Part shown: positions 4,424 through 25,354 of the stretch, in pieces
Layout: each line of letters starts with the position of its first letter
Position numbering within the stretch: the first letter of the stretch is position 1
Virus record (IMG/VR): IMGVR_UViG_3300017732_000049
Location: 1-26,908 of that record
Strand: one strand, 5' to 3'
DNA: 26,908 bases
From: a virus
The notes under the pieces: generated by a model
What the model was told of the DNA's origin: nothing
Database searches by the model: none
The model's input: the letters and a program-made list of their open reading frames with translations, nothing else
Position numbers and translations under genes: made by a program

Positions 4424-5482
4424 ATGGCATTTTCGACAGCTTCTGGTCATGGAAACCTACCCAATGGTAATTTCTCACCAGTTATCTACAGCAAACAGGT
4501 GCAACTTGCATTCCGCAAAGCATCTGTTGCCGAGGCAATTACTAACTCTGATTATTTCGGAGAAATTGCAAACATGGGTGACTCAGTAAAAATCATTAAA
4601 GAACCTGAAATCACCGTAAAAGAATACGCACGTGGTACAACTATTACACCACAAGACTTGGACGATGAAGACTTTTCATTGACCATCGACAAAGCAAACT
4701 ACTTTGCCTTTAAAGTCGATGACATTGAGGAAGCCCACTCTCACGTCAACTTCCAAAGCCTTGCAAGTGATCGTGCTGCGTATCGTTTGTCAGATCAGTT
4801 TGACCAAGACGTTCTTGGATACCTAACAGGCTTTAAACAGTCTGCTATTCATGGTACTCCAGATACTGTAAACTCAACCGTTAATGGTAGTGTTGCAGTT
4901 TCAACTGCTGGTACTGACGAGTTGTTATCTTCAATGAAAATTGATTCTAATGACTTTGGTGGTTCAGCAGGTGATGCACTTGCCCTTCAGCCTCGTACTG
5001 GTGGTGCAACTGACTCAACTCCTGCTGCTGGTGACACATTCCCATTGACTGTGATCGCACGTATGTCTCGTCTTCTTGACCAGCAAAACGTGGATTCACA
5101 AGGTCGTTGGCTTGTTGTTGATCCAGTATTTATGGAACTACTGAAAGATGAGGACTCACGTTTGTTTAACGCAGACTTCGGTGGTTCTGGTCTTCAGAAT
5201 GGTCAAATCGGAACTAAGATTCACGGTTTCTCTGTTTATACATCTAACAACCTTCCTGCTGTTGGTACTGGTCCTTCCTTTACTGGAACGAACTCGTCTA
5301 CTAACTATGGCATGATTGTTGCTGGACATGATTCTGCTGTCGCAACTGCGGAGCAAATCAACAAAACAGAAACATACCGTGACCCAGATTCATTTGCCGA
5401 CATTGTTCGGGGTATGCATCTATATGGCCGCAAGATTCTTCGTCCAGAAGCTCTTGTGAATGCTAAGTATCACTTGGCGTAA
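4424..5482 (+). CDS. Major capsid protein
   Basis: A 352-residue protein after the scaffold gene, with a strong AAGGAG site (4411-4416) seven bases before the ATG. This is the kind of translation signal expected for the most abundant virion protein. The sequence resembles coat proteins I recall from marine short-tailed phages: an N-terminal arm (VIYSKQVQLAFRKASVAEAI), a region like an HK97-fold E-loop (VKIIKEPEITVKEYARGTTI, then DDEDFSLTIDKANYFAFKVD), a long helix-rich stretch at about 105-145 (RAAYRLSDQFDQDVLGYLTG), and a C-terminal region with GRWLVVDPVFMELLKDE. Nearby lines are more GC-rich (29 of 60 bases G or C at 5041-5100) than the later cassette, in keeping with high expression. The HK97 fold is inferred from family resemblance. 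Confidence 0.92.
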   Translation: MAFSTASGHGNLPNGNFSPVIYSKQVQLAFRKASVAEAITNSDYFGEIANMGDSVKIIKEPEITVKEYARGTTITPQDLDDEDFSLTIDKANYFAFKVDDIEEAHSHVNFQSLASDRAAYRLSDQFDQDVLGYLTGFKQSAIHGTPDTVNSTVNGSVAVSTAGTDELLSSMKIDSNDFGGSAGDALALQPRTGGATDSTPAAGDTFPLTVIARMSRLLDQQNVDSQGRWLVVDPVFMELLKDEDSRLFNADFGGSGLQNGQIGTKIHGFSVYTSNNLPAVGTGPSFTGTNSSTNYGMIVAGHDSAVATAEQINKTETYRDPDSFADIVRGMHLYGRKILRPEALVNAKYHLA

Positions 5483-5496
5483 GGGAGGATTGAAAC

Positions 5497-5979
5497 ATGG
5501 CACTTGGTGATAATACTCTTGCTTCCGCACGTGGCAATACGCAACGTGGTCGCAATCCCTATATGGTTCAAACTACCTTAAACTTGGCAACAGCCTTGTC
5601 TGACAAAGGTTCTGCTCTTGCAGCATCTGATGTCATTCCTGTAATTGCTGTAGCTAAAGGTACTATGGTCCTAAACGCAGGTATCGAAGTTGACACTGCA
5701 TCCGATGGTTCTACTTTCACAGTAGACTTAGGTATGGTTGATGCTGACGTATTTGTTGATGGTTTCGATGCTACATCTGCAGCAGCAGTAGTCGCACAGA
5801 ACCCTGCAGCTTATCAGCCTGTAATGGCTGTTGCTAATGACAACATTGATGTAACAATTGCTACCCTTTCAGGTGGTGCTGTTACTACTGGTAAGCTCCG
5901 TGTATGGGCAGTTCTTATGGATTGCACAGACATTGGTGACATGGCTGCTAATGAAGTAGACCGTGATACACTTGCATAA
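5497..5979 (+). CDS. Probable head decoration or stabilising protein
   Basis: A 160-residue protein 14 bases after the capsid gene, preceded by GGGAGG. It is rich in Ala, Val, Thr and Asp with almost no long helical charge pattern, which suggests beta structure. The N-terminal 25 residues are polar and flexible. The middle alternates short strands (VIPVIAVAKGTMVLNAGIEV; TFTVDLGMVD). The position directly after the coat gene, the size and the composition fit a capsid decoration protein. I recall similar proteins at this place in marine phages, but there is no motif that fixes the role. Confidence 0.7.
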   Translation: MALGDNTLASARGNTQRGRNPYMVQTTLNLATALSDKGSALAASDVIPVIAVAKGTMVLNAGIEVDTASDGSTFTVDLGMVDADVFVDGFDATSAAAVVAQNPAAYQPVMAVANDNIDVTIATLSGGAVTTGKLRVWAVLMDCTDIGDMAANEVDRDTLA

Positions 5980-5990
5980 TTAAAACAAAC

Positions 5991-6020
5991 TAAAGGGGCT
6001 GCTTTAGGGTGGCCTCTTTA
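5991..6020 (+). terminator. Possible weak terminator after the capsid unit
   Basis: TAAAGGGGC (5991-5999) pairs with GCCTCTTTA (6012-6020) in a nine-pair stem with one G-U pair and a 12-base loop. It stands between the decoration gene and the next start. The trailing T-tract is only three T bases inside the stem end, so termination would be partial at best. It might instead protect the 3' end of the capsid mRNA. Confidence 0.4.
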
Positions 6021-6043
6021 TTGCTATATAGAGGATTAGAATA

Positions 6044-6481
6044 ATGGCAATCACAACAGCAATGTGTACAAGTTTTAAGTCTGAGCTACTTGGTGGTACA
6101 CACGACTTAGACAGTAACACAATTAAATTGGCTTTAATTAAAAGTGGTATGTCTGGAACATATGGGGCAGCTACAACAAACTACTCAGATGTTACAGGTA
6201 ACTCTGATGAGGCTACAGGCACTAACTACAGTGCAGGAGGTCAAAATCTTGACAGTGCTGCTATTACCACATCAGGAACTACTGCCTTAGTAGATTTTGC
6301 AGACGAGGTATTTTCTAACGTAACTACTTCTGCAGCAGGTTGTATTATTTATAATTCATCTGCATCTAATAAAGCTATTGCAGTAATCGACTTTGGTGGT
6401 ACAGTTAGTGCTACTGCAGGTGATCTTACTATTGAATTTCCTGCTGCAGGAGCATCTACAGCAGTCATTCGTATCGCCTAA
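6044..6481 (+). CDS. Small beta-rich virion protein
   Basis: A 145-residue protein rich in Ala, Thr, Ser and Gly. The opening SFKSELLGGTHDLDSNTIKLALIKS and the later CIIYNSSASNKAIAVIDFGG are a pattern I recall from many marine and alphaproteobacterial phage genomes, where it is annotated as a hypothetical or virion protein. It is likely a single beta-sandwich domain. AGAGGATT just upstream serves as the ribosome-binding site. It sits between the head genes and the fibre gene, so a minor head or tail component is likely. The function is not known. Confidence 0.8.
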   Translation: MAITTAMCTSFKSELLGGTHDLDSNTIKLALIKSGMSGTYGAATTNYSDVTGNSDEATGTNYSAGGQNLDSAAITTSGTTALVDFADEVFSNVTTSAAGCIIYNSSASNKAIAVIDFGGTVSATAGDLTIEFPAAGASTAVIRIA

Positions 6482-6505: not shown

Positions 6506-8053
6506 ATGGCACTTGTCGTAAAAGATAGGGTTAAAGAAACAACCACAACTACAGGTACAGGTAGTATCTCTTTAGGGGGGGCAGTAACTAAGTTTAAAAC
6601 CTTTAGTTCTGCCCTTTCTAATGCCGACACCACATACTATGCTATTGAGCAACAAGGTGATGATAATGAGTTTGAAGTAGGTATTGGTACTTATACTAGT
6701 AGTGGTAATACTTTAGCTAGAACTACTATCCTATCCAGTTCTAATTCTAATAATGCTGTAGATTTTTCTGCAGGTACTAAAAATATATTTATGACATACC
6801 CTGCAGATAAAGCAGTGTTTGAAGATGCATCAGGTAATATTGCTATTCCCGGTACTATAGATGGTCGTGACCTTGCTACAGACGGTAGTAAGTTAGACGG
6901 TATTGAAGCTAGTGCTACGGCAGATCAGACAAACGCAGAGATAAGAGCCGCCGTTGAAGCTGCATCCGACAGTAACGTCTTTACTGATGCTGATCATACT
7001 AAGTTAAATGGTATTGAGGCTAGTGCAACTGCAGACCAAACTAATGCTGAGATAAGAGCAGCAGTTGAAGCTGCTAGTGATTCAAATGTATTTACAGATG
7101 ATGACCATACTAAACTAAATGGTATTGAAGCAAGTGCTACGGCAGATCAAACTGATGCCGAAATAAGGGCGGCAGTAGAAGCAGCCTCAGACTCTAATGT
7201 ATTTACTGATGCAGACCACACTAAGCTCAATGGTATTGAAGCATCTGCTGATGTAACTGATACAGCTAATGTAACTTCTGCAGGAGCTTTGATGGACAGT
7301 GAGGTTACTAATCTTGCTGAAGTTAAAGCATTTGATAGTTCAGACTATGCAACTGCTGCACAAGGTACTACTGCTGATGCAGCTTTACCTAAAGCAGGAG
7401 GCACAATAACAGGCAATATTGTCATGTCTGGCTCTCAAACTGTAGATGGTCGAGATTTGTCAGCAGACGGTACTAAGCTAGACGGTATCGAAGCATCTTC
7501 AGATGTCACAGATGCAGCTAATGTAGGTACTGCCCTTACTGCATTTTCTACTGGTACAGATGCAGGGTCTTCTGACCTTATCCCTGTATATGATGTTAGT
7601 GCTAGTGCATGGGAAAAGCAAACTATTGCTAATGCTATTGCAGCAGGACCAACTGGACCGACAGGACCAACTGGCCCTACTGGACCTACTGGACCTGCAG
7701 GTGGTGATGGTGATGCAGGTGGTACAGGCCCAACTGGACCGACAGGACCGACAGGCCCAACTGGTCCGTCAGGCGCAGATAGTACTGTGGCAGGACCGAC
7801 AGGGCCAACTGGCCCAACAGGACCAACAGGGCCAACAGGACCGTCTGGGGCTTCCATAAGTGGTCTGGCATACGGCAGCTATTACCAAAGTGGTAGTTAC
7901 TCGACGACAGATAAAGGTCTTAAAAATTTAACTAGTGCGTCACAACAAAATGATTGGCTTTGGTGCGGCGTAGATAGAACTGATCTTACTGCCACTCAGT
8001 ATGATAATACAACTTATTTTTCTGGGTTTCGCAAACGTTACAGAACATATTAG
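6506..8053 (+). CDS. Tail-fibre-like protein with 37-aa repeats and collagen-like region
   Basis: A 515-residue modular protein. Residues 1-120 form an N-terminal head ([36 protein letters not shown]) that I recall from marine phage fibres. Three tandem 37-residue repeats follow at residues 129-239 (each with [11 protein letters not shown] and [12 protein letters not shown]), then a linker with two DGRDL words in total. Residues 381-449 are collagen-like: 14 Gly-Pro-Thr triplets plus GPA and GPS, in three blocks split by short GGDGDAGGT and GADSTVA breaks. The last 66 residues ([25 protein letters not shown]) may be a small tip domain. Collagen-like triplets probably form a trimeric triple helix in the virion. 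The eight-gene enzyme cassette starts nine bases after its stop. Confidence 0.88.
6890..7222 (+). repeat. Three tandem 111-bp coding repeats
   Basis: Units at 6890-7000, 7001-7111 and 7112-7222 each encode 37 residues beginning K-L-(D/N)-G-I-E-A-S and ending (A/D)-D-H-T. A partial fourth unit follows to about 7250. The protein copies are almost identical, yet the DNA differs at many third codon positions (gctacggcagat, gcaactgcagac, gctacggcagat). The repeat is therefore kept at the protein level and is not a fresh duplication throughout. Confidence 0.9.
7646..7852 (+). repeat. Collagen-like Gly-Pro-Thr coding repeat
   Basis: Nine-base units of the form GGN-CCN-AC(A/T) are repeated in three blocks, encoding 5, 4 and 5 Gly-Pro-Thr triplets, closed by GPA, GPS and GPS. 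Synonymous codons vary between units. The reverse strand is also open here and would read Gly-Pro-Val, which is a by-product of the repeat. Confidence 0.9.
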
Positions 8054-8062
8054 GAAAAAAAA

Positions 8063-8494
8063 ATGCCTTGGTATTATTTCAATGAAGATAACTCTTTGTG
8101 CTATATGTCAACAGATGGCAAATTAGCAGACAGTGAGTTTGATAAATTAAAAGTTGGTCAAAAAACTATGACTGAAATTTATCTTGAGACTCATCCTACT
8201 ATACCAGAGGGATGTGAAGATGAATATGAGGATTTATGGATACTTGAAGATGGTACTGTTGGTGTAAAACAGGAAGTCACACGTTGTGGAACAAAAAGAC
8301 ACTTACGGCAAATTATTGATTATTTGCAAATGTATGCGCCTTTAGATGATATTGATAGACCTGCTGATTGGGCAGATCGTCTTGATGATGGCTATGTATA
8401 TCTTGGTGAAGATATTGTAATTAATTTTTTAGCTGACAGAGTAATAACTAATGATGAAAAAAGACAGCTTTATGAAAAGGCAAATGCTATATGA
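8063..8494 (+). CDS. Unknown 143-aa protein, first gene of the cassette
   Basis: A 143-residue acidic protein starting nine bases after the collagen-like fibre gene; its stop overlaps the next start (ATGA). I do not recognise it. Visible features are an aromatic N-terminus (MPWYYFNEDNSLCYM), acidic stretches (EGCEDEYEDLW), a helix-like segment (RHLRQIIDYLQMY) and a charged C-terminal helix (ITNDEKRQLYEKANAI). There is no signal peptide, no membrane segment and no metal motif. Small proteins directly after fibre genes are sometimes fibre-assembly chaperones, and translational coupling to the cassette allows a role as partner or substrate there. Both ideas are inference. Confidence 0.8.
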   Translation: MPWYYFNEDNSLCYMSTDGKLADSEFDKLKVGQKTMTEIYLETHPTIPEGCEDEYEDLWILEDGTVGVKQEVTRCGTKRHLRQIIDYLQMYAPLDDIDRPADWADRLDDGYVYLGEDIVINFLADRVITNDEKRQLYEKANAI

Positions 8495-8988
8495 TTGAAA
8501 TAATCAAACCAGTAGGTGAAGTTATTAAACGTTTAGAAGAAGTAATAAGTTTAAATAAAAGCAGAAAACCTACAAAAACATTAACACTGGATGAGTTTTT
8601 AAAAAGACCTTTGCCCCATATGGACATACCTAAAAGTGCTTCTGGTGCACTTTTTGAAAATGATGAAAAAGAAATTTCTGGTTTACTTAAAGAGTGTGCT
8701 GAAATTTTAGAGTGTGATGATGTTACTAATTGTACAAGAATGGAAGCAAATACTCAACTTCCTTGGCATACTAATAGTGACAACGAAGGTTACAGAATAT
8801 ATTATATTAAAGGTAAGGGTGTTTTTAAGTACTTAGATGAAAATGGAAATCAACAACTATCTTATGATGATCCTAATGATTGGACTTGCAGAAAATTTAA
8901 AGTTGTAAAAGAAAAACCTTTTTGGCATTCTGCTTATGCAGAAGAAACTAGATTTGCATTTGGTTTTGGTCGCCCTATATGGCGATAA
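8491..8988 (+). CDS. Cupin-type 2OG/Fe(II) oxygenase-like protein
   Basis: A 165-residue protein with the layout of an aspartyl/asparaginyl-hydroxylase-like or other double-stranded beta-helix oxygenase. LPWHTNSDNEGYR (H93, D97) would supply the first metal ligands, IYYIKGKGVFKY is the following strand, and FWHSAYAEETRFAFGFG (H146, R154) would give the distal His and the 2-oxoglutarate-binding Arg. If active, it would hydroxylate a substrate using O2 and 2-oxoglutarate in the cytoplasm. The H-x3-D spacing differs from the common H-x-D, so the metal triad is less sure than in the 12221 gene. It overlaps the previous gene by 4 bases and the next by 10. A sugar-binding or non-catalytic cupin is the main alternative. 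Confidence 0.7.
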   Translation: MIEIIKPVGEVIKRLEEVISLNKSRKPTKTLTLDEFLKRPLPHMDIPKSASGALFENDEKEISGLLKECAEILECDDVTNCTRMEANTQLPWHTNSDNEGYRIYYIKGKGVFKYLDENGNQQLSYDDPNDWTCRKFKVVKEKPFWHSAYAEETRFAFGFGRPIWR

Positions 8989-9908
8989 GTGCAGAGGCTT
9001 GGGTTGCACTTTGGATTGAGCATAGAAAACATAACCCAGAAAAAATGCATCTTGTTCCTTTGCTACGAAATTGTTTAAGTATAGCAGAACAATGGGATAA
9101 CGAAGAAGCATGTTTTGAAGTCTATAATAATCAAAAAGTTGACTACAGATTTATGGGTGGCTTTGGTGCATTTGAACACATAAGGTTTTCAAAAGGTTTA
9201 TATATTACTGAATATAAACAAAGAGATGATTGGCTTAAAGCAGAACCAGACGAACAAATATATCAAGAGTATTTAAATAGGGCTAATGACCGATATTTAC
9301 AAACAGATAAGCCTTGGGTTAAAGATAGACCATATGTTCTTGTGCCTTTGCAGTTTATTTACCCTAAAGACTACTATGAAACAGTAGCCCTTGTTGAGTG
9401 GGCTACAAAAAATAAAGTTTATACAGTATTTAAACGCCACCCTGCATCATCAAGCCAAAGCAATATACCTAGAAACTATGATGCGTTTTGGGGAGTTGTA
9501 GAAAAAATGGGGATAACAAGTGAGTATACTTGTTTTCCAAGAGAAAACTACAATTCTATGTCAATGGTTTCACAATGTGAAATGCTTATAAGTGTTGATA
9601 GTGCTATGACTTTGCAAGCCATGCTGCAACAAAAACCAACTGTAAATTTAAGGCGTTGTATGATAAGTGATATTGTGCCTTTGGCTAACTATAAAGAACT
9701 AGACAGTAGTGTATTAGAATTAAAACCAATACCAAAAGAGGAACAGATAAGATGGCTTACATGGTATTGGAAGTCTTGTGTCAATGATTACAACTCTGAA
9801 AATTTTAAGTGGAAAATAAATAAGAGGCGTGATTTATACAAGCTAGGGGCTACAGATGTAGACCTTCACTCATGGAAATTTACTAAAGAAAATGGACTTC
9901 ATGTATAA
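8979..9908 (+). CDS. KpsC/KpsS-like glycosyltransferase-type protein
   Basis: A 309-residue protein resembling the C-terminal half of capsule polysaccharide biosynthesis (KpsC/KpsS-type, CMP-Kdo-using) transferases. The recognisable signals are a strand YVLVPLQF, VYTVFKRHPASSS with H154-P155 (the basic 'K-x-HP' loop of the family), and CEMLISVDSAMTLQAMLQQKPTVNLR with S205, D207 and S208, matching the 'S..V.T.NS..G.EAL..GKPV' type donor-binding helix of GT-B enzymes. The expected role is transfer of a sugar from a nucleotide donor onto a glycan or a protein. There is no signal peptide or membrane segment. It overlaps both neighbours (10 and 17 bases). The donor and the acceptor cannot be read from the sequence. 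Confidence 0.68.
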   Translation: MAISAEAWVALWIEHRKHNPEKMHLVPLLRNCLSIAEQWDNEEACFEVYNNQKVDYRFMGGFGAFEHIRFSKGLYITEYKQRDDWLKAEPDEQIYQEYLNRANDRYLQTDKPWVKDRPYVLVPLQFIYPKDYYETVALVEWATKNKVYTVFKRHPASSSQSNIPRNYDAFWGVVEKMGITSEYTCFPRENYNSMSMVSQCEMLISVDSAMTLQAMLQQKPTVNLRRCMISDIVPLANYKELDSSVLELKPIPKEEQIRWLTWYWKSCVNDYNSENFKWKINKRRDLYKLGATDVDLHSWKFTKENGLHV

Positions 9909-10806
9909 ATCTAATACTGAATTACACCCTGATATGATTAAGATGGACGATTTCATCTGGTGTGTAGAGGTTCACTTAACAGAACTATGCAATATGAAAT
10001 GTAGTTTTTGCCCACGGGCGCATGGCTACCCAAACCTTAATCAGAACATGAGTTTAGAAACCTTTGACCTTATACTTGATGAAATGGCTACATTTGATTT
10101 CTCAAAAAGAAATGGGTGGTCAGATAGCAATGACAAAAACCTTTATTCCGAAAAGCCAGATAAATTTAGACTGCATTTTGCAGGGCGTGGTGAACCTTCT
10201 TTGCATCCTGATTTTGGCAAGATGCTAGAAAAAGCAATACACAGGCGTAATACTGATATGCCTCATCTATGGATTAAGGTTAGCACCAATGGATCAAGGA
10301 TAGATAAGTATTATGATTTATATAAGCAGCTAGATGATGTAAATTTTAGTATATATGATGAAAGTAAAATTAGTTTCCATGAAGCTAAGTTACGTTATCC
10401 AGATATAAGAATTTCAGACCGTAAAACTAAAACAATTATGACAGACTCTAAAGCAGGTAGAGCTTTAAATAATCGTGGTGGTTCTGTGCCTGATGAAAAT
10501 ATAAACAGACCAGATTATAAAGGACATAAACAATGGGGTAAAATATGTCATAAGCCGTTTAATATGGTCTATGTAAATTGGGATGGTGATTACGTTCTTT
10601 GTTGTAATGATTGGAGCAAAGAAAACAATTTTAGTAATATACATAATGTTCCAATGAAAGAGTTTTGGAACACTGACGAAGGACTAAAAGAATACAGAAC
10701 AGAACTAATAAATGGTCGCAGAACAAAAAGCCCATGTTCAACTTGCTACAAACGACCTGATGTTGCATTTATTATGCAATTAAACGAGGCGGTTTATGCA
10801 GCATAA
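9892..10806 (+). CDS. Radical SAM/SPASM enzyme (first)
   Basis: A 304-residue protein with the radical SAM motif CNMKCSFC (C33, C37, C40), which binds the 4Fe-4S cluster that cleaves S-adenosylmethionine. AGRGEPSLHPDF follows as the 'GEP' strand that helps bind SAM, then KVSTNGSRID. The C-terminal part has C219, a CC pair at C237-C238 in DYVLCCNDW, and C282-x2-C285, with NIHNVPMKEFWNTDEG between, as in SPASM or twitch domains with an extra cluster. Such enzymes modify peptides, sugars or other small substrates. The start at 9892 overlaps the upstream stop by 17 bases; the ATG at 9901 is also possible. It overlaps the next gene by 11 bases. The reaction is unknown. Confidence 0.88.
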   Translation: MDFMYKSNTELHPDMIKMDDFIWCVEVHLTELCNMKCSFCPRAHGYPNLNQNMSLETFDLILDEMATFDFSKRNGWSDSNDKNLYSEKPDKFRLHFAGRGEPSLHPDFGKMLEKAIHRRNTDMPHLWIKVSTNGSRIDKYYDLYKQLDDVNFSIYDESKISFHEAKLRYPDIRISDRKTKTIMTDSKAGRALNNRGGSVPDENINRPDYKGHKQWGKICHKPFNMVYVNWDGDYVLCCNDWSKENNFSNIHNVPMKEFWNTDEGLKEYRTELINGRRTKSPCSTCYKRPDVAFIMQLNEAVYAA

Positions 10807-11269
10807 TCCTTGGCCCCACATAGTTGTTGATAATTTTTTAACCAATTATGACTTCCACTTAGCAGAAGTAAATAAAAGAAAGTCTATTGGTGAGGGGGCA
10901 AAGTATAGGTTATCTATATCTGATACATCTTTTCTTCCTGATATATTTAAGTATTGCAAAAAATTAGATCACAAACCCTATAACGAAGTTGAGAAAATTG
11001 ATTGGTATTATTCAGTTCAACACGGACCTTATGAGTATCCAATACACCATGAGTGGGTTAAGAAAATAATATCGGTTGTTGTTTATCTTGGAGATAAAGG
11101 AACAGGAACAGATTTATATAAACCAGATAAAAGTTATTACGGTAGAGTAGATTGGAAACCAAACAGAGCATTTATTTTTGCAGGTAAAGAAAATTATACT
11201 TACCACAGCTATTGTGCAGAAAGGGGAGAGACAAGAAAAACTTTAAACGGATTTATTATAGCAAAATGA
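10796..11269 (+). CDS. 2OG-Fe(II) oxygenase (second of three)
   Basis: A 157-residue protein with the plan of short phage 2OG oxygenases. The opening PWPHIVVDNFLTNYDF is typical of the family. PIHHEWVKKIISVVVYLGD holds H84-H85-E86 (H-x-E in place of the usual H-x-D), GTGTDLY is the next strand turn, and NRAFIFAGKENYTYHSY gives the distal H137. R147 in ETRKTLNGFI is the likely 2-oxoglutarate anchor. Glu for Asp in the metal triad is known to be tolerated in few 2OG enzymes, so activity is uncertain. The gene lies between the two radical SAM genes and overlaps both, which suggests that it works on the same substrate. Confidence 0.8.
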   Translation: MQHNPWPHIVVDNFLTNYDFHLAEVNKRKSIGEGAKYRLSISDTSFLPDIFKYCKKLDHKPYNEVEKIDWYYSVQHGPYEYPIHHEWVKKIISVVVYLGDKGTGTDLYKPDKSYYGRVDWKPNRAFIFAGKENYTYHSYCAERGETRKTLNGFIIAK

Positions 11270-12228
11270 AAGTTAATAATTTACTTACAATGCCTCAACT
11301 AGAAAGGGCCGTTATTGAAATAAACGGTGGATGTAATTATACTTGCAAGATGTGTCCTCAAACAGACCCTAAAAGACCAAAAGGTTTTTTAAGGAAAATG
11401 CCACTAGATCAGTTTGAAGATATTGTTGCTCAGTGTGCAGAACAAAACGTAAAGGCTATAAATCTAGAAGGATCAGGAGAACCTACTTTAAATAGAAATC
11501 TTCCAAGATATATTGAGATCGTAAAAAAGTATGGAGCAAAATCTTACATATATTCTAATGGTAAGAATATGCGTGGGTCTTTTATGAAAGAAACGGTTGA
11601 TGCAGGTCTTAACTTTTTTAGGTTTTCTATTATAGGCTACAATGAAGAGACATATAAACAATGGATGAATAGTCCTTTCTTTAACTTAGTTATACAAAAT
11701 GCTAAAGATATGCGGGAGTATGCTAAAGATAAAGATTGTATAGTAGCAGCATATCATTTAATACTAGACAACGATAATGAGCCAGTAGAAGTAGAAGCAT
11801 ATAAATCTCTTTTTGATAATATGAATGTTGATATTTGGCGTATGCATAATTGGTCTGGTGTATATGAGTCTGATTATAAAAGAAAAGGTAAGATAGCAGG
11901 ATGTGGAAGACCTTTCTCTCCTGATGTAGTTGTTAGGGCAGGAGGTAATGATGGTAATACAGCAGCAGTGCATCCTTGCTGTCAGGTTTTAGGTAATGAT
12001 GAGGCTGCAGTATTAGGGCATTTAAGTACAAATACTTTAAAAGAAGTTTGGAATGGTAAGGCTTATAATAAATTAAGAGAGCAACACAGAAATAAAGATT
12101 TCCCTGATTATTGCAAGTCATGTGATTTTTTAGTTGAAGACCCTGAAGTTTTAGTGTACAGTAATGATGACAGATATATAGGAAATATGATCGGCACTAA
12201 CTTTAATTTGAAGGAATACTATGCATAG
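11266..12228 (+). CDS. Radical SAM/SPASM enzyme (second)
   Basis: A 320-residue protein read from the ATG at 11266, which overlaps the upstream TGA as ATGA. An upstream ATG at 11212 in the same frame lies deep inside the previous gene and is less likely. CNYTCKMC (C23, C27, C30) is the radical SAM cluster motif, EGSGEPTLNRNLP the GEP motif, and AKSYIYSNG the next strand. C213, the pair C238-C239 in VHPCCQVLG, and C283-x2-C286 form a SPASM-like set. The 44-residue distance from the CC pair to the C-x2-C pair equals that in the first radical SAM protein, so the two are probably paralogues with different substrates or steps. The C-terminal LKEVWNGKAYNKLREQH is typical of SPASM proteins. Confidence 0.88.
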   Translation: MKVNNLLTMPQLERAVIEINGGCNYTCKMCPQTDPKRPKGFLRKMPLDQFEDIVAQCAEQNVKAINLEGSGEPTLNRNLPRYIEIVKKYGAKSYIYSNGKNMRGSFMKETVDAGLNFFRFSIIGYNEETYKQWMNSPFFNLVIQNAKDMREYAKDKDCIVAAYHLILDNDNEPVEVEAYKSLFDNMNVDIWRMHNWSGVYESDYKRKGKIAGCGRPFSPDVVVRAGGNDGNTAAVHPCCQVLGNDEAAVLGHLSTNTLKEVWNGKAYNKLREQHRNKDFPDYCKSCDFLVEDPEVLVYSNDDRYIGNMIGTNFNLKEYYA

Positions 12229-12766
12229 ACCACTATGGCAACTATACGAAAACGCAGTAAATGAATTTCTTGTAAATAAAATACATGATTTAGCTGAAGA
12301 ACAGATAGTAAATAAAGCTACAACTTTTAATGATAATAATAAAGCTAGGTCTAGTGAAGTTGCTTGGCTATCTCAAAATAAAGAACTTAAAAACTTTTTG
12401 TGGGACATAGTTCAGAATGCTAACAGAAATGTGTTTGGTTTTAAAGTAGAAAACTATGCAGACATACAATATACTCTGTATCATGCTGAACAAAATGGTC
12501 ATTATGATTGGCATATTGATACAAATTGGTCTTCTCAAACTGCTTTTGATAGGAAGTTAAGTATAACAGTTCAGCTAAGTGATTCGGAAAACTATGAAGG
12601 TGGAGACTTTAGTTTTGCAGAAGTAGAAAACCCCAATAAAGAAAAACTTAGACAAAAAGGTACTGTCCTTGTTTTTCCTAGTTATCTAAGCCATAGAGTA
12701 TCTCCTGTAACAAAAGGTACAAGATGTTCTTTAGTTGCTTGGTTTGAGGGTCAAAGATGGATATAG
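12221..12766 (+). CDS. 2OG-Fe(II) oxygenase, prolyl-4-hydroxylase-like (third)
   Basis: A 181-residue protein with a complete 2OG oxygenase signature: DIQYTLYHAEQNGHYDWHID with H98-x-D100, then RKLSITVQLSDSENYEGGDF, then GTVLVFPSYLSHRVSPVTKG with distal H158, and R168 as the 2-oxoglutarate anchor in TRCSLVAW. This is the arrangement of PKHD-type and P4H-like hydroxylases, which hydroxylate prolyl or other side chains or small molecules. Of the three oxygenase-like proteins in the cassette it has the clearest catalytic set. It overlaps the preceding radical SAM gene by 8 bases and the next gene by 10. The substrate cannot be named from the sequence. Confidence 0.9.
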   Translation: MHRPLWQLYENAVNEFLVNKIHDLAEEQIVNKATTFNDNNKARSSEVAWLSQNKELKNFLWDIVQNANRNVFGFKVENYADIQYTLYHAEQNGHYDWHIDTNWSSQTAFDRKLSITVQLSDSENYEGGDFSFAEVENPNKEKLRQKGTVLVFPSYLSHRVSPVTKGTRCSLVAWFEGQRWI

Positions 12767-13446
12767 TAGCATATGGATCACACGACAAACACCCTTACAG
12801 GATATTATTAGATGAACCTGAAAGACTCACTAAGTCTATAAAAAAAGAGTATGCTAAATATAACGTAACGGGTCTTTTACAGTGTCCTTCTATAGCTGAT
12901 ACTATAAAAGATTACTACGTAATAAACACCCCTTGCGATTTACTTATAAAGATTACTAGAGGTAAATCTCATAAAGTTTTTAATACTTCTGCTAATCCCC
13001 ATATACTAATGGTTGATCAATTAGGAGAGGATATTAAAAGAGCTCCGAATGCAATACAGTGGTTAAGTGATTTTTATTTATGTATGTTTGCACCAACTAA
13101 AACTATATTAAACATATACCCACCATTTATGCATAAGTCTGATATTTTTGGTATTGCAGGTTCTTTTGACATAAGTAAATGGTTTAGGCCAATTAGTTTT
13201 TCATCAATATATACAGGTAATCCTATTGAAATAAAAAAAGGAGAACCTATGGCATATGTAACTTTTAATAAAGAAATTAAATTTAAAAGGTTTACCGTTA
13301 CAGAGCCTATGGTTAATATTGCTCATAGCTGTTTAAGTCTAAAAGTTTATTCCCCAAAATCTTCTTTATCTTATTGCTATGAAAGATTTAAAATAAATAG
13401 ATATAATAAACAAATAATGAAACTAATAAATGAACAAATAGACTAA
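12757..13446 (+). CDS. Unknown 229-aa protein, last gene of the cassette
   Basis: A 229-residue protein of unknown function. It opens with MDIVAYGSHDKHPYRILLDE. It has no signal peptide or membrane helix. The segment ILNIYPPFMHKSDIFGIAGS, followed by DISKWFRPISFSS and IEIKKGEPMAYVTFNK, resembles, from memory, an uncharacterised beta-rich family (DUF6065-like) found in cyanophages and marine bacteria close to 2OG oxygenases. This match is weak and unproven. The DNA is very AT-rich (17 of 60 bases G or C at 13201-13260). Its start lies inside the previous gene, so it belongs to the same translation unit. It could be a substrate-binding or partner protein of the cassette. Confidence 0.75.
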   Translation: MDIVAYGSHDKHPYRILLDEPERLTKSIKKEYAKYNVTGLLQCPSIADTIKDYYVINTPCDLLIKITRGKSHKVFNTSANPHILMVDQLGEDIKRAPNAIQWLSDFYLCMFAPTKTILNIYPPFMHKSDIFGIAGSFDISKWFRPISFSSIYTGNPIEIKKGEPMAYVTFNKEIKFKRFTVTEPMVNIAHSCLSLKVYSPKSSLSYCYERFKINRYNKQIMKLINEQID

Positions 13447-13457
13447 GGATAAACTAA

Positions 13458-14921
13458 ATGTTCGGTTTTACGGCACTATCTGAAGCTCCCTTTGGTGTAT
13501 CATCCTCATCTGTATCTCCAGATGTTTCTTTAGGTAGTGTCTCTGCTAGTACTGCAGTAGCAGGTCTGTCTGTTGGTGGTTTTGAAGTTGACATCTCAGA
13601 AAGACTTGGGTCTGTAAGTGCTACTGGTGCTGTAGGAACTATAAGTTTTAATACAGAAGAAAAGCTAGGCAGTGTTTCTGGTACAACAGGTATTAGTTCA
13701 GTCTCTGTAAATTTAACTGTAACACCTACAGGAGTACAAAGTACTGGTGCAATAGGTACACTAGAAAATAGCAACACTGTTACATTAACTGGTGTGTCTG
13801 GAACAGGTGCTGTAAATACAGTAGAGAATAGTAATACATCTACACTTACTGGTGTGTCTGGGACAGGTTCTGTAAATACAGTAACCATTACGTTTTCTGA
13901 AAGTTTAGCAAGTGTTTTTGGTACAGGACAAATAAACTCTGTAACTGTAAATGTAACAGAAAAAATTAATAGTGTAAGCAGCACTGGATCAGTAAATACT
14001 GTTGATGCAAGATTTTCTTTTCCAATTTCTGGTGTAGCTGCTACTGGTTCTTTAGGTACACTTACACTTACTGCAACTTCTACCATAGTAATTTCAAGCA
14101 GTGGACTAACTTCTTCTTTAGGAACAATAGAACCTAAAGTAAGTGAAAGCATTGTTGGTGTTCAGGGTTCTGGTTCTGTTGGAACACTTCAAACTAAAAC
14201 AGCTAGTGGTCTTACAGGTGTTTCTTCTACAGGTATAGTTACATCTGTAGCTATAAATGTTTTTGAAATTGATGTAACAGAACAATTATCTTCTGTAAGT
14301 TCTACTGGTGCTGTAGCTACTGTATCTGTAAACATTTCAGAAAGTATTACTGGTGTTTCTGGTACAACAGCTTTAGGTTCTATAGTTACCACTACATCAG
14401 AAGCATTAAATTCTGTAAGTGCTACAGGTAATGTAGGTTCTTTAGGAGTTGATGTAAGTCTGTCATTGACAGGAGTGCAAGGCTCTGGTGCGGTAAACAC
14501 TTTAAGTATTAGTGTGGGTAAAACACATACGTTAGTTGGTGTTAGTGCTTCTGGTAGTGTAGGTTCTTTAAAAGTTAATAACTCTGTAATTCCAACAGGT
14601 GTAGTTGTTGCAGGTGAAGTTGAGGGCTTAGAAGCCAAAGTTAGTGAAGTTTTAAACAGTGTCTTTGCAACAGGTGCTATTGGACTTCTTTCTTTCCCTG
14701 CAACACAAAGTCTAACCTCTGTTGGATTACAAGTAGCATTAGGTCAACTTACTGCAACAGGTGTTGTATTTGATTTTGACCCAGATGCTTACAACAGACA
14801 AAGAACTATATACGCAGTAGCACAAGATAATAATAATACAGTTATTATACCACCACAAAATAGAACCTTGTATATACCTAAACAAAACAAGAATACACAA
14901 ATCATTAAGATTGCAGCCTAA
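13458..14921 (+). CDS. Repeat-rich beta virion protein (about 20 units)
   Basis: A 487-residue protein made of about 20 copies of a unit of roughly 20-24 residues with the core L-x-(G/S)-V-x-(G/A/S)-(T/S)-G-x-(V/I)-x-(T/S)-(V/L), separated by short alternating strands such as VTVNVTEK. The pattern predicts a long beta-solenoid or beta-fibre. I see no Cys and almost no aromatic residues within the repeats. The last 50 residues differ: DFDPDAYNRQRTIYAVAQD, then NNTVIIPPQNRTLYIPKQ, a C-terminal domain I recall in marine phage structural proteins. Two neighbouring units (13790-13830 and 13850-13890) are nearly identical in DNA, a sign of recent duplication. It is probably a fibre, spike or surface-decoration protein, placed between the cassette and the tail genes. 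Confidence 0.85.
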   Translation: MFGFTALSEAPFGVSSSSVSPDVSLGSVSASTAVAGLSVGGFEVDISERLGSVSATGAVGTISFNTEEKLGSVSGTTGISSVSVNLTVTPTGVQSTGAIGTLENSNTVTLTGVSGTGAVNTVENSNTSTLTGVSGTGSVNTVTITFSESLASVFGTGQINSVTVNVTEKINSVSSTGSVNTVDARFSFPISGVAATGSLGTLTLTATSTIVISSSGLTSSLGTIEPKVSESIVGVQGSGSVGTLQTKTASGLTGVSSTGIVTSVAINVFEIDVTEQLSSVSSTGAVATVSVNISESITGVSGTTALGSIVTTTSEALNSVSATGNVGSLGVDVSLSLTGVQGSGAVNTLSISVGKTHTLVGVSASGSVGSLKVNNSVIPTGVVVAGEVEGLEAKVSEVLNSVFATGAIGLLSFPATQSLTSVGLQVALGQLTATGVVFDFDPDAYNRQRTIYAVAQDNNNTVIIPPQNRTLYIPKQNKNTQIIKIAA

Positions 14922-18069: not shown

Positions 18070-18312
18070 ATGGCAGGATATTCAAGACAAGACACAGCAA
18101 ACAACATTGCTAATGGTAAAGTTATTGATGCAGATGACTTAGACAGTGAGTTTAATGCGGTTGAAACTGCATTTAATGCATCAAGTGGTCACGTTCACGA
18201 TGGCACTACAGCTAACGGTGCTCCTATTACTAAGGTTGGTCCTAGTCAAGACCTTGTTGTATCATCAACTAGTGTGTTACCAAAAACAACAAACACTTTA
18301 GATGTGGGTTAA
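18070..18312 (+). CDS. N-terminal fragment of tail fibre, ended by TAA
   Basis: An 80-residue product as read with standard stops. SRQDTANNIANGKVIDADDL followed by EFNAVETAFNASSGHVHDGT and GAPITKVGP is the conserved head region of T7-like and other short-tailed phage fibres, which binds the tail. The frame then reads LPKTTNTLDVG and meets TAA at 18310-18312. The same frame continues open for another 1.5 kb with fibre sequence. If the stop is real, only the tail-attachment head is made. Confidence 0.75.
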   Translation: MAGYSRQDTANNIANGKVIDADDLDSEFNAVETAFNASSGHVHDGTTANGAPITKVGPSQDLVVSSTSVLPKTTNTLDVG

Positions 18313-19251
18313 AGTGGAGCACAATTTAAAGATGGATATTTTGATGGATCAGTTAAAGGGCATACACTACAAGCAGGTACTAATGGATACACAACTATTG
18401 TTGATAATGAAATTGATGTATCTAGTGGAGATTTAACAGTAGATATTGCAGGTGATCTTACTATAGACGTTGATGGTGGAGATGTATTATTAAAAGATGC
18501 TACTGCTACATGGGGTGGACTAAGTAATAACTCAGGCAATCTTGTTGTAAAATCTGGTACAACTACAGCAGCTACTTTTACTGGTGCTAATGTAGACTTA
18601 GCAGGTACATTAGATGTTACAGGTGCAGCAACTTTAGATAGTACATTAGGTGTTACAGGTAACGCAACTGTAGGTGGCACTCTGGGTGTTACAGGACTGT
18701 CTACTTTAGCAACAGTAGATGTTAATGGTGGTGCTATTGATGGTACTATTATTGGTGCTAATACTGCAGCAGCCATTACAGGTACTACAATTACAGGTAC
18801 ATCCCTTGTCGGACCATTAACAGGCAATGCAGCCACAGCTACAAAATTAGCAACGGCACGTAGCATTACTATTGATGGTGATGTAGATGCCTCTGCTACT
18901 AACTTTGATGGCACAGGTGCTATTACTCTTACTACTACACTAGACACAGTAAACTCTAACGTAGGTTCTTTTGGTGGTGCAACAGCAATCCCTGTACTTA
19001 CAGTTAATGGTAAAGGGCTTGTTACTGCAGCAAGTACAGCAGCTATTACTACTACTCTTACTGTTGGTGCAGACAGTGGATCAAATGATACTGTAGCTCT
19101 TGCAAGTGATACACTTAACTTTGCAGGTACAGCTAATGAAATAGAAACTACAGTATCCGATAATCAAATACAAATTGGTTTACCTAACAATGTTACTGTA
19201 GCAGGTAATCTTACTGTATCGGGTACAACTACTACAGTAAACACTACAAAC

Positions 19252-19878
19252 ATGACTGTCAGTGATAAACTTGTTGAGTTAGGTAATGGTCGTACAGGTT
19301 CTGCTTCAGGTGATTCAGGTCTTGTTATTGAACGTGGTAATGATGCTAATGCCTTTATTGGTTTTGATGAAAGTGCAGACAAGTTTACTGTAGGTACAGG
19401 TACATTTACAGGTGCATCTACAGGCGATCTTACAATTACTACAGGCACACTTGTAGCCAATATTGAAGGTGCTGTTACAGGTAATGCTAGTACAGCAACT
19501 ACTCTTGCCACAGCTAGAGCTATTGCATTAGCAGGAGATGTTACTGGTACTGCTAATTTTGATGGTAGTGGTGATATTAGTATTACAGCTACCGTAGCAG
19601 ACGATAGCCACAATCATACTATTGCAAATGTAGATGGTTTGCAGACAGCACTAGATGCTAAAGCAGCATTAGCAGGTGCTAACTTTACTGGTGCTGTAGA
19701 TGTAGATGCTGCACTTACAGCAAACAGTTTTGCTATTGATAACGGTTCTAATGATTGGACATTTGAAGTAGATAGTAATAACCTTCTTATAAAATATGCT
19801 GGAACAAGTAAAATGAAACTAGACAGTTCTGGAAACCTTACCGTTGTAGGTAATGTAACAGCATACGGATCAATTTAA
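19252..19878 (+). CDS. C-terminal part of tail fibre (possible separate product)
   Basis: A 208-residue open frame from the first ATG after the interrupting stop, in the same frame as the fibre head. It holds SDKLVELGNGRTGSASGDSG, one fibre repeat (TGNASTATTLATARAIALAG) and a C-terminal DNWTFEV-like region. There is no clear ribosome-binding site directly before the ATG, only AACACTACAAAC. It may be no more than the distal part of the interrupted fibre and might not be translated by itself. Confidence 0.4.
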   Translation: MTVSDKLVELGNGRTGSASGDSGLVIERGNDANAFIGFDESADKFTVGTGTFTGASTGDLTITTGTLVANIEGAVTGNASTATTLATARAIALAGDVTGTANFDGSGDISITATVADDSHNHTIANVDGLQTALDAKAALAGANFTGAVDVDAALTANSFAIDNGSNDWTFEVDSNNLLIKYAGTSKMKLDSSGNLTVVGNVTAYGSI

Positions 19879-24194: not shown

Positions 24195-25354
24195 TGGCAT
24201 TTAGTTTACAAGGGTTTGGTGCTGGGTTTGCTAGTCAATTATCCACTAATTTAAATGAACAACGTCAACGTCAAGAAAGACTGCAAGATGAAGCAACTAG
24301 CATTGCCACTAGACAACGACTAGCTAAACAAGCAGAACGTGACCAAGAAAAAAAGGTAATGGAAGAACTAACAGAATCTTTAAGTTTGTACTACACACCC
24401 GATCAAGTCAAAAATATTTTATCTGAAGGTAAGTCTGGAGTTAAATATGCGTTAAATCATGCTCAAAATCTTCCAGTAGGAGTTGATGCATCTACTACGT
24501 ATACGTTACCTAAAACAAACATCCCTAGTAAACATACGTATGATTCTGATAATCCTTCTGCAACTAATGCTCCAAGTGTATCAGAAGGTGTTTTAGGTAA
24601 AGGAACATTTGCATCTAGGTTTACACCCATAGACCCTAAAGCAAAAACTAAAGCTACAACATTTCAAGCCAGACTTGTTGAGCTTGATTTTGAAAGACAA
24701 AACGCAAAGACTCAAGAGGAAAAAGACCTTGCTCAAAAGGCATTTGATTCAACCTCAGAAGCATATAAAAACTTTAAGTCTATAGAAACATCTAAAGCAA
24801 GTAAAGATGGTAAAACTGTTACTATAGATTTTTTAGATGAAACACGTCAGCAATCTATCGTTGAAAATAGTTTTGATTCAGTCCTAAAGCCGTATATAGA
24901 TTTGTATGAAGTAGACCCTGCTACACAGTTAAAAAAATTAAAAACAGGTAATCAAGCAGCTATTATACAGCTACAAGCTCAAAACTACATTAACTTAAAA
25001 GAAACATATTTGACTAAAGATTCTGATAGCAAGGCTCTTGTAGAAGAAGGTGATACATTTTTTACTAGAATAAAACAAGTAGGTCAGGCTGCAAATAGAG
25101 ATAAAATAAACTACGTAAATGAACAAAGGCTAAAGCAGACAACATTAGAAGCAACGGCTACTCAAAATAATACTTCTGTAGCAAGTACTTCTACAACTTA
25201 CTACATAAATAATTCTGCTGAACCTCGCACGTTACAAGATGTCCAAACTGGAAGGCGTGATGGTACATTTAATATGGGTTCTGTTGTAGAATACGTAGAC
25301 GAAAATGGCACATTAAGAACTGCCTTAGTTTCAACGGTAGGTGTATACCCATAA
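24194..25354 (+). CDS. Virion-associated protein, 386 aa
   Basis: A 386-residue protein preceded by AAGGAG, with its ATG overlapping the upstream TAA. The start FSLQGFGAGFASQLSTNLNE and a basic-acidic coiled coil (residues about 22-65) are typical of small core or internal virion proteins. The middle is Thr/Lys-rich and less ordered, with helices at about 160-190 and 255-300, and the C-terminal 50 residues are beta-like (FNMGSVVEYVDENGTLRTAL). The role is unknown. It is likely part of the internal or ejection assembly, judged by its neighbours. Confidence 0.75.
   Translation: MAFSLQGFGAGFASQLSTNLNEQRQRQERLQDEATSIATRQRLAKQAERDQEKKVMEELTESLSLYYTPDQVKNILSEGKSGVKYALNHAQNLPVGVDASTTYTLPKTNIPSKHTYDSDNPSATNAPSVSEGVLGKGTFASRFTPIDPKAKTKATTFQARLVELDFERQNAKTQEEKDLAQKAFDSTSEAYKNFKSIETSKASKDGKTVTIDFLDETRQQSIVENSFDSVLKPYIDLYEVDPATQLKKLKTGNQAAIIQLQAQNYINLKETYLTKDSDSKALVEEGDTFFTRIKQVGQAANRDKINYVNEQRLKQTTLEATATQNNTSVASTSTTYYINNSAEPRTLQDVQTGRRDGTFNMGSVVEYVDENGTLRTALVSTVGVYP

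Follow-up and report, generated by a model that had tools for sequence, protein, structure and literature searches.

The window analysed here (IMG/VR record IMGVR_UViG_3300017732_000049, positions 1 to 26,908) is a 26.9-kb fragment of a virus genome and shows, directly behind a collagen-like tail-fibre gene, a cassette of eight genes (g1 to g8) whose products include predicted 2-oxoglutarate (2OG) oxygenases, radical S-adenosylmethionine (SAM) enzymes and a glycosyltransferase-like protein. A first-pass annotation, made from the letters alone, had described eight genes with overlapping junctions, flanked by a fibre gene on one side and a beta-repeat gene on the other, and this layout was borne out: eight intact open reading frames (ORFs) occupy positions 8063-13446 between these two genes, and all seven internal junctions overlap, by 4, 10, 17, 11, 4, 8 and 10 bases in order from g1 to g8. 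Regarding gene content, Pfam confirms radical SAM/SPASM enzymes for g4 and g6 and a 2OG oxygenase for g7, the assignments of g5 (2OG) and g3 (KpsC-like) stay below cut-off, and that of g2 comes from its fold. The collagen-like nature of the fibre is the key to the locus and was absent from that annotation, which had named the fibre as a candidate target.

The outer gaps of the cassette are +9 bases to the fibre gene and +11 to the beta-repeat gene. The 12 junctions between the beta-repeat gene and position 25354 range from an 8-base overlap to a 21-base gap, except for a 939-base gap within a broken fibre gene, and compared with these junctions seven consecutive overlaps are found only in the cassette. 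All eight genes have ATG starts; the best start of g6 is at 11266, and the listed TTG at 11212 lies further upstream. The GC content is 0.29-0.35 in g1-g8, 0.44 in the fibre gene and 0.33-0.37 in the next four genes. Coordinates are given in Table 1.

Table 1. Coordinates of the fibre, the cassette and its downstream boundary in the window
Feature	Coordinates	Strand	Basis
Collagen-like tail fibre, presumed substrate	6506..8053	+	PHROG tail fibre matches to 5e-53; Pfam Collagen 25.4 bits; 22 Gly-X-Y triplets
Gly-Pro-Thr collagen tract of fibre, Lys-free	7646..7855	+	Of 22 triplets, 17 have Pro at X, 15 have Thr at Y and none has Lys at Y
C-terminal fibre tip, ends KRYRTY	8027..8050	+	Resembles KRYRTF (L004, L013, L016) and KKYRSF (L038)
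g1, 143 amino acids (aa), no family	8063..8494	+	Homologues first in cassette of contigs L004, L013, L016, L038, L049 (20-58% identity)
g2, 2OG-oxygenase/cupin-like double-stranded beta-helix, HTN..H..R	8491..8988	+	Predicted structure
g3, GT-B glycosyltransferase fold resembling KpsC	8979..9908	+	Model with predicted local distance difference test (pLDDT) 83.5, Foldseek, Z scores
g4, radical SAM/SPASM (twitch-type) enzyme	9892..10806	+	Pfam Radical_SAM 38.4, SPASM 38.8 bits, above cut-offs
g5, 2OG-Fe(II) oxygenase, HxE..H..R	10796..11269	+	Pfam 2OG-FeII_Oxy_3 E 1e-4, below cut-off (23.6 of 27 bits)
g6, radical SAM/SPASM enzyme	11266..12228	+	Pfam Radical_SAM 54.2, SPASM 39.3 bits, above cut-offs
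g7, PKHD-type 2OG-Fe(II) hydroxylase	12221..12766	+	Pfam 2OG-FeII_Oxy_3 59.5 bits (cut-off 27), phrog_61 3.4e-31, PKHD structures
g8, no assigned function	12757..13446	+	phrog_17480/7084
Beta-repeat structural gene, downstream boundary	13458..14921	+	52% match over 94 residues in the CRP-345 gene after the 145-aa gene

Fibre composition and the enzymes behind it

The lysine pattern concerns a fusion protein (GT25-PLOD) with the domains GT_PLOD (8e-37), Glyco_transf_25 (5e-12) and, weakly, 2OG oxygenase (24.9 of 27 bits). Its profile matches the structures of human-type LH3 (1.3e-48), R699 (1e-35), procollagen galactosyltransferase 1 (1e-23) and 6ax6 (4.5e-12), and R655 was also matched; the 6ax6 record, titled 'procollagen lysyl hydroxylase and glycosyltransferase', is presumably mimivirus L230. 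The three types of enzyme that modify collagen lysines in animals thus appear to be united in the fusion, a single protein with a length of about 600 residues. The viral contig collection contains 311 GT25-PLOD relatives, 80 of which were kept for analysis, and the gene is also present in the cultured phages CRP-6, S-PRM1, S-CAM9 and three S-8S5x; among the phage records with GT25-PLOD, five of 11 were examined, and the four cultured-phage loci examined show an upstream collagen fibre with 22-26 Lys at Y. A search for a bacterial origin found no relatives among 81 pattern matches in genome contigs. Among the kept loci, 47 extend 2.5 kb or more upstream of GT25-PLOD, and 43 of these show a collagen ORF there. 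The fibre set contains 64 members, many of them near-duplicates: 60 from the 80 kept loci, with an upstream collagen ORF of at least 15 triplets, and four from cultured phages. All 64 fibres with the enzyme have Lys in at least 11% of Y positions, and their 5762 triplets show 1492 Lys at Y against three at X. An independent sample, picked for Gly-Pro-Thr repeats and blind to Lys, includes 120 stretches, 102 of them with a qualifying collagen ORF. Its 98 loci without the enzyme show 184 Lys at Y against 10 at X in 8280 triplets, with none in 87 of 119 ORFs. Among fibres of this sample with 2 kb or more of downstream sequence, four of six Lys-rich ones are accompanied by the enzyme, versus none of 46 others (p=5.5e-5), with a weak GT-PLOD match in L190 (E 6e-7) falling within the 1e-6 limit of the test. 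Lys at Y alone was rejected as an enzyme signature; the Y preference is general even without the enzyme, so only the amount was used. The window fits the lysine pattern, having a Lys-free collagen and no lysine enzyme: none of the 22 triplets offers the Lys at Y that a PLOD/LH-type enzyme would use, and no GT_PLOD domain was found in the 26.9-kb window record, which is a genome fragment, or in its near-twin, while the other three of the five records contain one.

The proline pattern concerns g7. A g7-type oxygenase lies between fibre and fusion in 25 of 25 fibres with at least 10% Pro at X versus one of 39 Pro-poor fibres (two of 39 if a relic is counted). In 25 clusters at 90% identity, g7 is present in 12 of 12 Pro-rich versus one of 13 Pro-poor clusters (p=2.7e-6), and in 12 of 12 versus two of 13 if every tblastn trace is counted (p=2.0e-5). 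L112 was rescored as g7-positive by tblastn after appearing as an exception, and beforehand the clusters stood at 11 of 12 versus one of 13 (p=3.3e-5). The tblastn search was then applied to all 64 fibre-fusion intervals, and the one further match, contrary to the rule, is the relic in L049. There, at about 8945-9010, the last 23 or so g7 codons stand before and overlap the GT25-PLOD start, behind a collagen nearly Pro-free at X, and the trace reads as a lost g7. In four stretches of the independent sample (L122, L134, L172 and L232), as in the window, g7 is also found beside collagens with little or no Lys and in the absence of a fusion match. Judging from its family and this covariation, g7 is likely a collagen prolyl hydroxylase.

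The third pattern joins g4 and the C-terminal fibre tip, which occur together in five distinct fibres (the window, L004, L013, L016 and L038), while 61 of the 64 collagen fibres surveyed with GT25-PLOD, L049 among them, show neither. The tip pattern matches four contigs of the viral collection, all with the cassette, and it was built from these contigs and the window. This coincidence is a lead; the five fibres are related, and function and descent are inseparable in them. The window fits both the proline pattern (Pro at X with g7) and the tip pattern (tip with g4).

The cassette in related contigs and its proteins

The window belongs with the HMO-2011-type podoviruses, its capsid protein being 80-81% identical to those of HMO-2011 and CRP-345 and the structural gene order being the same. 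In CRP-345 a 145-aa gene is directly followed by the gene with the beta-repeat match, a short ORF and a 105-aa gene. Since both fibre and cassette are absent between the 145-aa and beta-repeat genes of CRP-345, they represent about 7 kb of additional DNA in the window. CRP-207 shows a fibre N-terminus related to that of the window and no match to any cassette gene, and no homologue of the 145-aa, fibre, beta-repeat or 105-aa genes was matched in HMO-2011, CRP-1, CRP-9, CRP-13 or MW202701. Contig L003 is 99.8% identical to the window across 20.8 kb that include the cassette. A second tail-fibre gene of the window (18070-19878) has a single in-frame stop after codon 80, due to a sequencing error or real decay, and L003 shows at that place an uninterrupted ORF of 602 residues.

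Besides the near-twins L003 and L005, a search of the viral contigs with g3 and g4 found three contigs (L004, L013 and L016); L038, L039 and L049 came from the search with the GT25-PLOD fusion. L004 and L013 show a collagen fibre (139 and 157 triplets, respectively, with the tip KRYRTF) followed by g1-g2-g3-g3b-g4-g5-g6-g7, g3b being a g3 paralogue. Downstream of g7 both have the GT25, GT_PLOD and 2OG fusion, an FkbM methyltransferase, the beta-repeat gene and a BppU-like gene. The cassette proteins of the window share 45-70% identity with those of L004, and in the comparison of L004 with L013 each of g1-g7 shows a ratio of nonsynonymous to synonymous substitution rates (dN/dS) of roughly 0.05-0.20. 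Both contigs have a backbone other than that of the window. In the 15-kb stretches of L004 and L016, no backbone protein of the window (HMO type) was matched except the short p90, at 38% in L016; the cassette thus seems to have moved between phage groups. In L016 g5 is absent, and at 5316-6309 g6 is broken by a short repeated segment and a frame change, which may be an assembly error or a mutation. L038 has the order g1-g2-g3-g5-g4-g6-fusion, with g5 ahead of g4. L049 shows a tail chaperone and g1-g2-g3-g6-fusion, without g4, g5 or an intact g7, and L039 begins inside g3. No g8 was matched in the relatives that bear radical SAM genes, and g7 and the GT25-PLOD gene occur beside collagen fibres without other cassette genes. 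The cassette is not a fixed eight-gene pathway: it is modular, and its content and order vary. The 13.5-kb contig L147 encodes on its reverse strand a collagen fibre poor in Lys and, behind it, proteins of 279, 185 (2OG-oxygenase-looking) and 451 aa; the last has a radical SAM-like CNYECNYC motif, by eye unlike g4 and g6, and these genes may form a similar but unrelated set. In L040 (2600-3472) and L051 (1183-2049) the interval from collagen fibre to GT25-PLOD holds a DUF6065 (PF19541) protein, a putative partner of the collagen-modification system.

The Pfam search of g1, g2 and g8 gave no match at E<=1. An identification of g1 as Phage_tail_APC was rejected; L049 carries a Phage_tail_APC besides g1. 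The g1 start pattern is found in 11 stretches, four in cassette contigs and seven in peptides of 33-40 residues without cassette genes. The nearest structures to the g2 model (pLDDT 85.1) are PHD2 and AlkB, with Z 9.4-10.7 across 131-141 aligned residues. Where HxD would be expected, six of six g2 relatives have HTN, and the phage records gave two weak matches. The g3 protein scores 14.3 of 20 bits for Pfam Capsule_synth, below the cut-off of the KpsC/KpsS family. The top Foldseek match of its model is KpsC (E 2.9e-5), with TM-scores of only 0.34-0.49 and Z 11.4-12.1 over 227-240 residues, nearly the full length, so that the fold is KpsC-like in the sense of a GT-B fold. UDP-GlcNAc epimerases and natural-product glycosyltransferases equal KpsC on Z, mostly over 126-144 residues. 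An HP dipeptide is invariant in nine of nine g3 sequences. No relative of g3 was found among 73 pattern matches in genome contigs searched for a bacterial origin, and neither g3 nor g5 matched the phage records. The g5 motif is conserved in L004 at 63% identity. Both g4 and g6 belong to the Radical_SAM and SPASM families, with the CX3CX2C motifs CNMKCSFC and CNYTCKMC; in phage records g4 has only matches of about 26% identity, to Campylobacter phages, and g6 a homologue in Phage C48C1 (54%). At E<=0.001 the two proteins share a single match among solved structures, BtrN, a small-molecule dehydrogenase, which is also the nearest for each (E 7.7e-11 for g6). All NCBIfam matches to maturases of ribosomally synthesised and post-translationally modified peptides (RiPPs) are far below cut-off, and the best of any kind reach 77.1 of 170 bits (g4) and 75.6 of 380 (g6). 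The g7 protein shows the HxD..H..R centre of its family, with H98, D100, H158 and R168, which we take to be the catalytic-centre residues, conserved in L004; NCBIfam PKHD models score it below their cut-offs. In S-SCSM1 (L236, 8956-11373) a distant g7 homologue adjoins a gene annotated as GDP-fucose protein O-fucosyltransferase and a further 2OG oxygenase, possibly another protein glycosylation set. Relatives of g8 are found in CRP-6 and in L131; in the latter the gene follows a collagen fibre and immediately precedes g7 and GT25-PLOD.

Probable fibre modification and alternative explanations

The cassette is probably a fibre-modification cassette in a modular system, because its gene order recurs behind collagen fibres on another backbone and its enzyme content follows fibre composition. 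This reading builds on gene content, conserved order, adjacency, composition covariation and folds, and each activity and substrate named below is predicted. The dedicated modification system that the first-pass annotation proposed is favoured by recurrence and by the covariation, but not as a fixed pathway of eight genes, from which L016, L049 and L038 depart. Of its two candidate targets, the virion's own fibre is favoured by the comparative evidence, and the host glycan is kept for g3. The annotation had asked whether the gene order recurs, and always beside fibres; the order of g1-g7 recurs behind the collagen fibres of L004 and L013, and L016, L038 and L049 have variants of it. Independent occurrence or decay of the genes had been named as counting against such a system, and this holds in part: g7 occurs apart from the other cassette genes, and decay is seen in the g7 relic of L049 and the interrupted g6 of L016.

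In the proposed mechanism, fibre and cassette would be expressed together. The g1 product might, as a guess, hold or present the new fibre chain. From covariation and family, g7 would hydroxylate X-position prolines of the Gly-Pro-Thr tract, and g5, perhaps also g2, would hydroxylate further fibre residues. The fold of g3 suggests that it may add a sugar to a hydroxyl, for example of Thr at Y or a newly made one, perhaps drawing on the host pool of CMP-3-deoxy-D-manno-octulosonic acid (CMP-Kdo). The g4 and g6 proteins would perform radical modifications, and for g4 the most likely site is the C-terminal tip. Where relatives have Gly-X-Lys collagen, the GT25-PLOD-2OG fusion would add lysine hydroxylation and glycosylation, and the outcome would be a stabilised or host-tuned fibre. 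Thr glycosylation is mentioned as a means of stabilising collagen in the text available from PMC3368898, and g3 might perform it on the fibre. Animal collagen is modified before trimerisation, according to the part of PMC8968730 at hand, so a coupled fibre-cassette operon would be suitable. It is rather unlikely that the set goes beyond the animal one as an assembly line of post-translational modification, in which hydroxylases act first, on Pro and other residues of both the Gly-Pro-Thr tract and the tip, BtrN-like enzymes afterwards oxidise the resulting hydroxyls to carbonyls or cross-link the tip, and a KpsC-like enzyme attaches a Kdo-type sugar to other hydroxyls.

Several observations weigh against fibre modification, which is argued from sequence and fold comparison. 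The collagen tract of the window is short (22 triplets), with 25.4 of 27.2 bits and E 1.2e-5 for Pfam Collagen, and the visible fibre of L038 is non-collagenous despite g1-g6 and GT25-PLOD. Asn occupies the usual metal-binding Asp position in g2, which may not be a normal oxygenase. A preference for Lys at Y and for Pro at X is in any case reported for the collagen-like proteins of E. coli prophages (PMC3368898, text available). No qualifying upstream collagen was found in four of the 47 loci (L038, L039, which starts inside g3, L070 and L090), and L025 (AG-345-L05) shows two GT25-PLOD places with no collagen ORF on the strand read, over 8.35 kb. The lysine test is weaker with at least 3 kb downstream (2/3 versus 0/37, p=0.004) and with at least 5 kb (1/2 versus 0/21, p=0.09); L178 has 33 Lys at Y of 150 and no enzyme in the 12 kb downstream, the side viewed, and L154 and L200 (1.7 kb downstream) are further Lys-rich exceptions without enzyme. 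For proline, the 10% cut-off was set post hoc (with every tblastn trace counted, p<=0.0013 at each of six cut-offs from 2 to 25%), and L100 carries g7 with 0% Pro. The GT25-PLOD tree contains only four g7 changes and five Pro-class changes, and independent pairs agree in about 3.5 of four (sign test 0.125); this test is underpowered, shared ancestry remains an explanation, and the result is suggestive only. Distant g7 homologues are present in 139 phage records, mostly of cyanophages (31-41% identity among the 60 rows listed); in the nine regions read from these records no collagen ORF of at least eight triplets was found, and in two the homologue adjoins uvsW. Since none of the nine regions has a collagen, the wider g7 family is not collagen-bound, and the rule applies to the close relatives behind fibres.

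An alternative, doubtful but deserving weight, is that the enzymes act on the non-collagen C-terminal tip of the fibre or on the adjacent beta-repeat protein, and not mainly on the collagen tract. The joint presence of tip and g4 in five fibres, their joint absence in 61 of 64, the restriction of the tip pattern to cassette contigs from which it was made, and L038, with tip and g1-g6 and no visible collagen, argue for it. Against it, g7 and GT25-PLOD track collagen composition and exist without the tip, and the five cases are related. It is quite unlikely that the cassette alters the host surface glycan, for superinfection exclusion or receptor change, its location being a shared hypervariable host-interaction region. 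The resemblance of g3 to the capsule Kdo transferase KpsC and the FkbM-type methyltransferases that accompany cassette relatives point that way, as do, in the portion of PMC7029224 available, pelagimyophage host-recognition clusters with glycosyltransferases linked to the O chain of lipopolysaccharide and with radical SAM cassettes. However, the enzyme content tracks the amino-acid composition of the adjoining fibre, the companion enzyme GT25-PLOD is of collagen-modifying type, the cassette lies directly behind the fibre on two backbones, and the family matches of the window, itself part of a genome, include no sugar-nucleotide gene.

A chance gathering of unrelated accessory genes at a variable spot, without joint function, is decidedly improbable. 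The varying content and order, the parts lost or broken in L049 and L016, and the g7 homologues widespread in cyanophages away from collagens agree with it, whereas seven genes in the same order on another backbone, the low dN/dS and the composition covariation do not. SPASM enzymes often mature ribosomal peptides, and with the weak NCBIfam maturase matches this would suit RiPP-like maturation by g4 and g6, the small precursor being either g1 or a peptide absent from the gene list. This is very improbable: those matches fall far short of the cut-offs, g1, with 143 aa under purifying selection (dN/dS about 0.13), is unlike a leader-core peptide, and the nearest solved structure of both enzymes is BtrN.

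Relation to known systems and significance

Phage fibres of the collagen-like kind are commonly regarded as free of modification. The animal LH/PLOD and GLT25D/COLGALT1 system resembles the single protein of the cassette relatives, which matches LH3 and procollagen galactosyltransferase 1 and lies behind Gly-X-Lys-rich fibres. Unlike that system, the window has no such protein and a Lys-free collagen, and the phage set adds radical SAM and KpsC-like proteins. KpsC beta-Kdo transferases share the GT-B fold with g3; unlike them, g3 has 12-14% identity, a score under the Pfam cut-off, a TM-score of about 0.4 and an activity that is predicted only. Mimivirus encodes collagens and the modifying enzymes L230/R699/R655 (PMC9546862), and it likewise joins virus-encoded collagen with collagen-modifying enzymes, the structures of R699 and R655 matching the phage fusion profile; in contrast, it is a giant amoebal virus with separate proteins, and no radical SAM genes are named in the available part of that source. 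The review PMC8968730, in the text available, names mimivirus among the viruses that hydroxylate and glycosylate their own collagen, and no phage. In Baltic Sea viruses a viral prolyl 4-hydroxylase is described as an auxiliary gene of cryptic use, tail-fibre collagen is mentioned, and a characterised chlorella-virus prolyl hydroxylase is cited (PMC9301287); unlike the present case, fibre linkage and residue covariation are absent from the portion of that account available. In the text available from PMC3368898, bacteria and viruses are said to lack prolyl hydroxylases for Pro at Y. The pelagimyophage host-recognition cluster is likewise a variable region in which tail fibres lie together with glycosyltransferases and radical SAM cassettes, but it is discussed as changing the host surface, with collagen repeats named as receptor-binding candidates (PMC7029224, in part). 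The main text of the CRP-6 paper (PMC6918029), as far as available, has no occurrence of collagen or hydroxylase. A literature search, with most subscription journals outside its scope, found nothing joining procollagen galactosyltransferase with phage, HMO-2011 with radical SAM, or prolyl hydroxylase, phage, collagen and tail fiber. Mimivirus collagen enzymes, viral prolyl 4-hydroxylase and radical SAM cassettes in host-recognition clusters are thus already known; no published account of the linkage rules, or of the extension by radical SAM and KpsC-like proteins, was found in the sources as available, nor any counterpart of the radical SAM arm.

If the fibre-modification reading is true, animal-type enzymes for collagen lysine are present in hundreds of viral contigs (the 311 relatives) and in several marine phages in culture, some of which hold dedicated fibre modifiers besides. 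Two simple enzyme-substrate rules would then apply, Lys at Y with GT25-PLOD and Pro at X with g7. The cultured phage CRP-6, in which gp60 is the fibre and gp58 the enzyme, makes the lysine arm directly testable, and single-protein GT25-PLOD enzymes may suit recombinant collagen. The assembly line, if real, would yield an adhesin with covalent stabilisation or greater chemical diversity, and phage groups could swap its decoration by gain or loss of cassette genes. On the fibre-modification reading, a structural and not a metabolic role would also fall to part of the 2OG and radical SAM genes that are counted as 'auxiliary metabolic genes' in marine phages.

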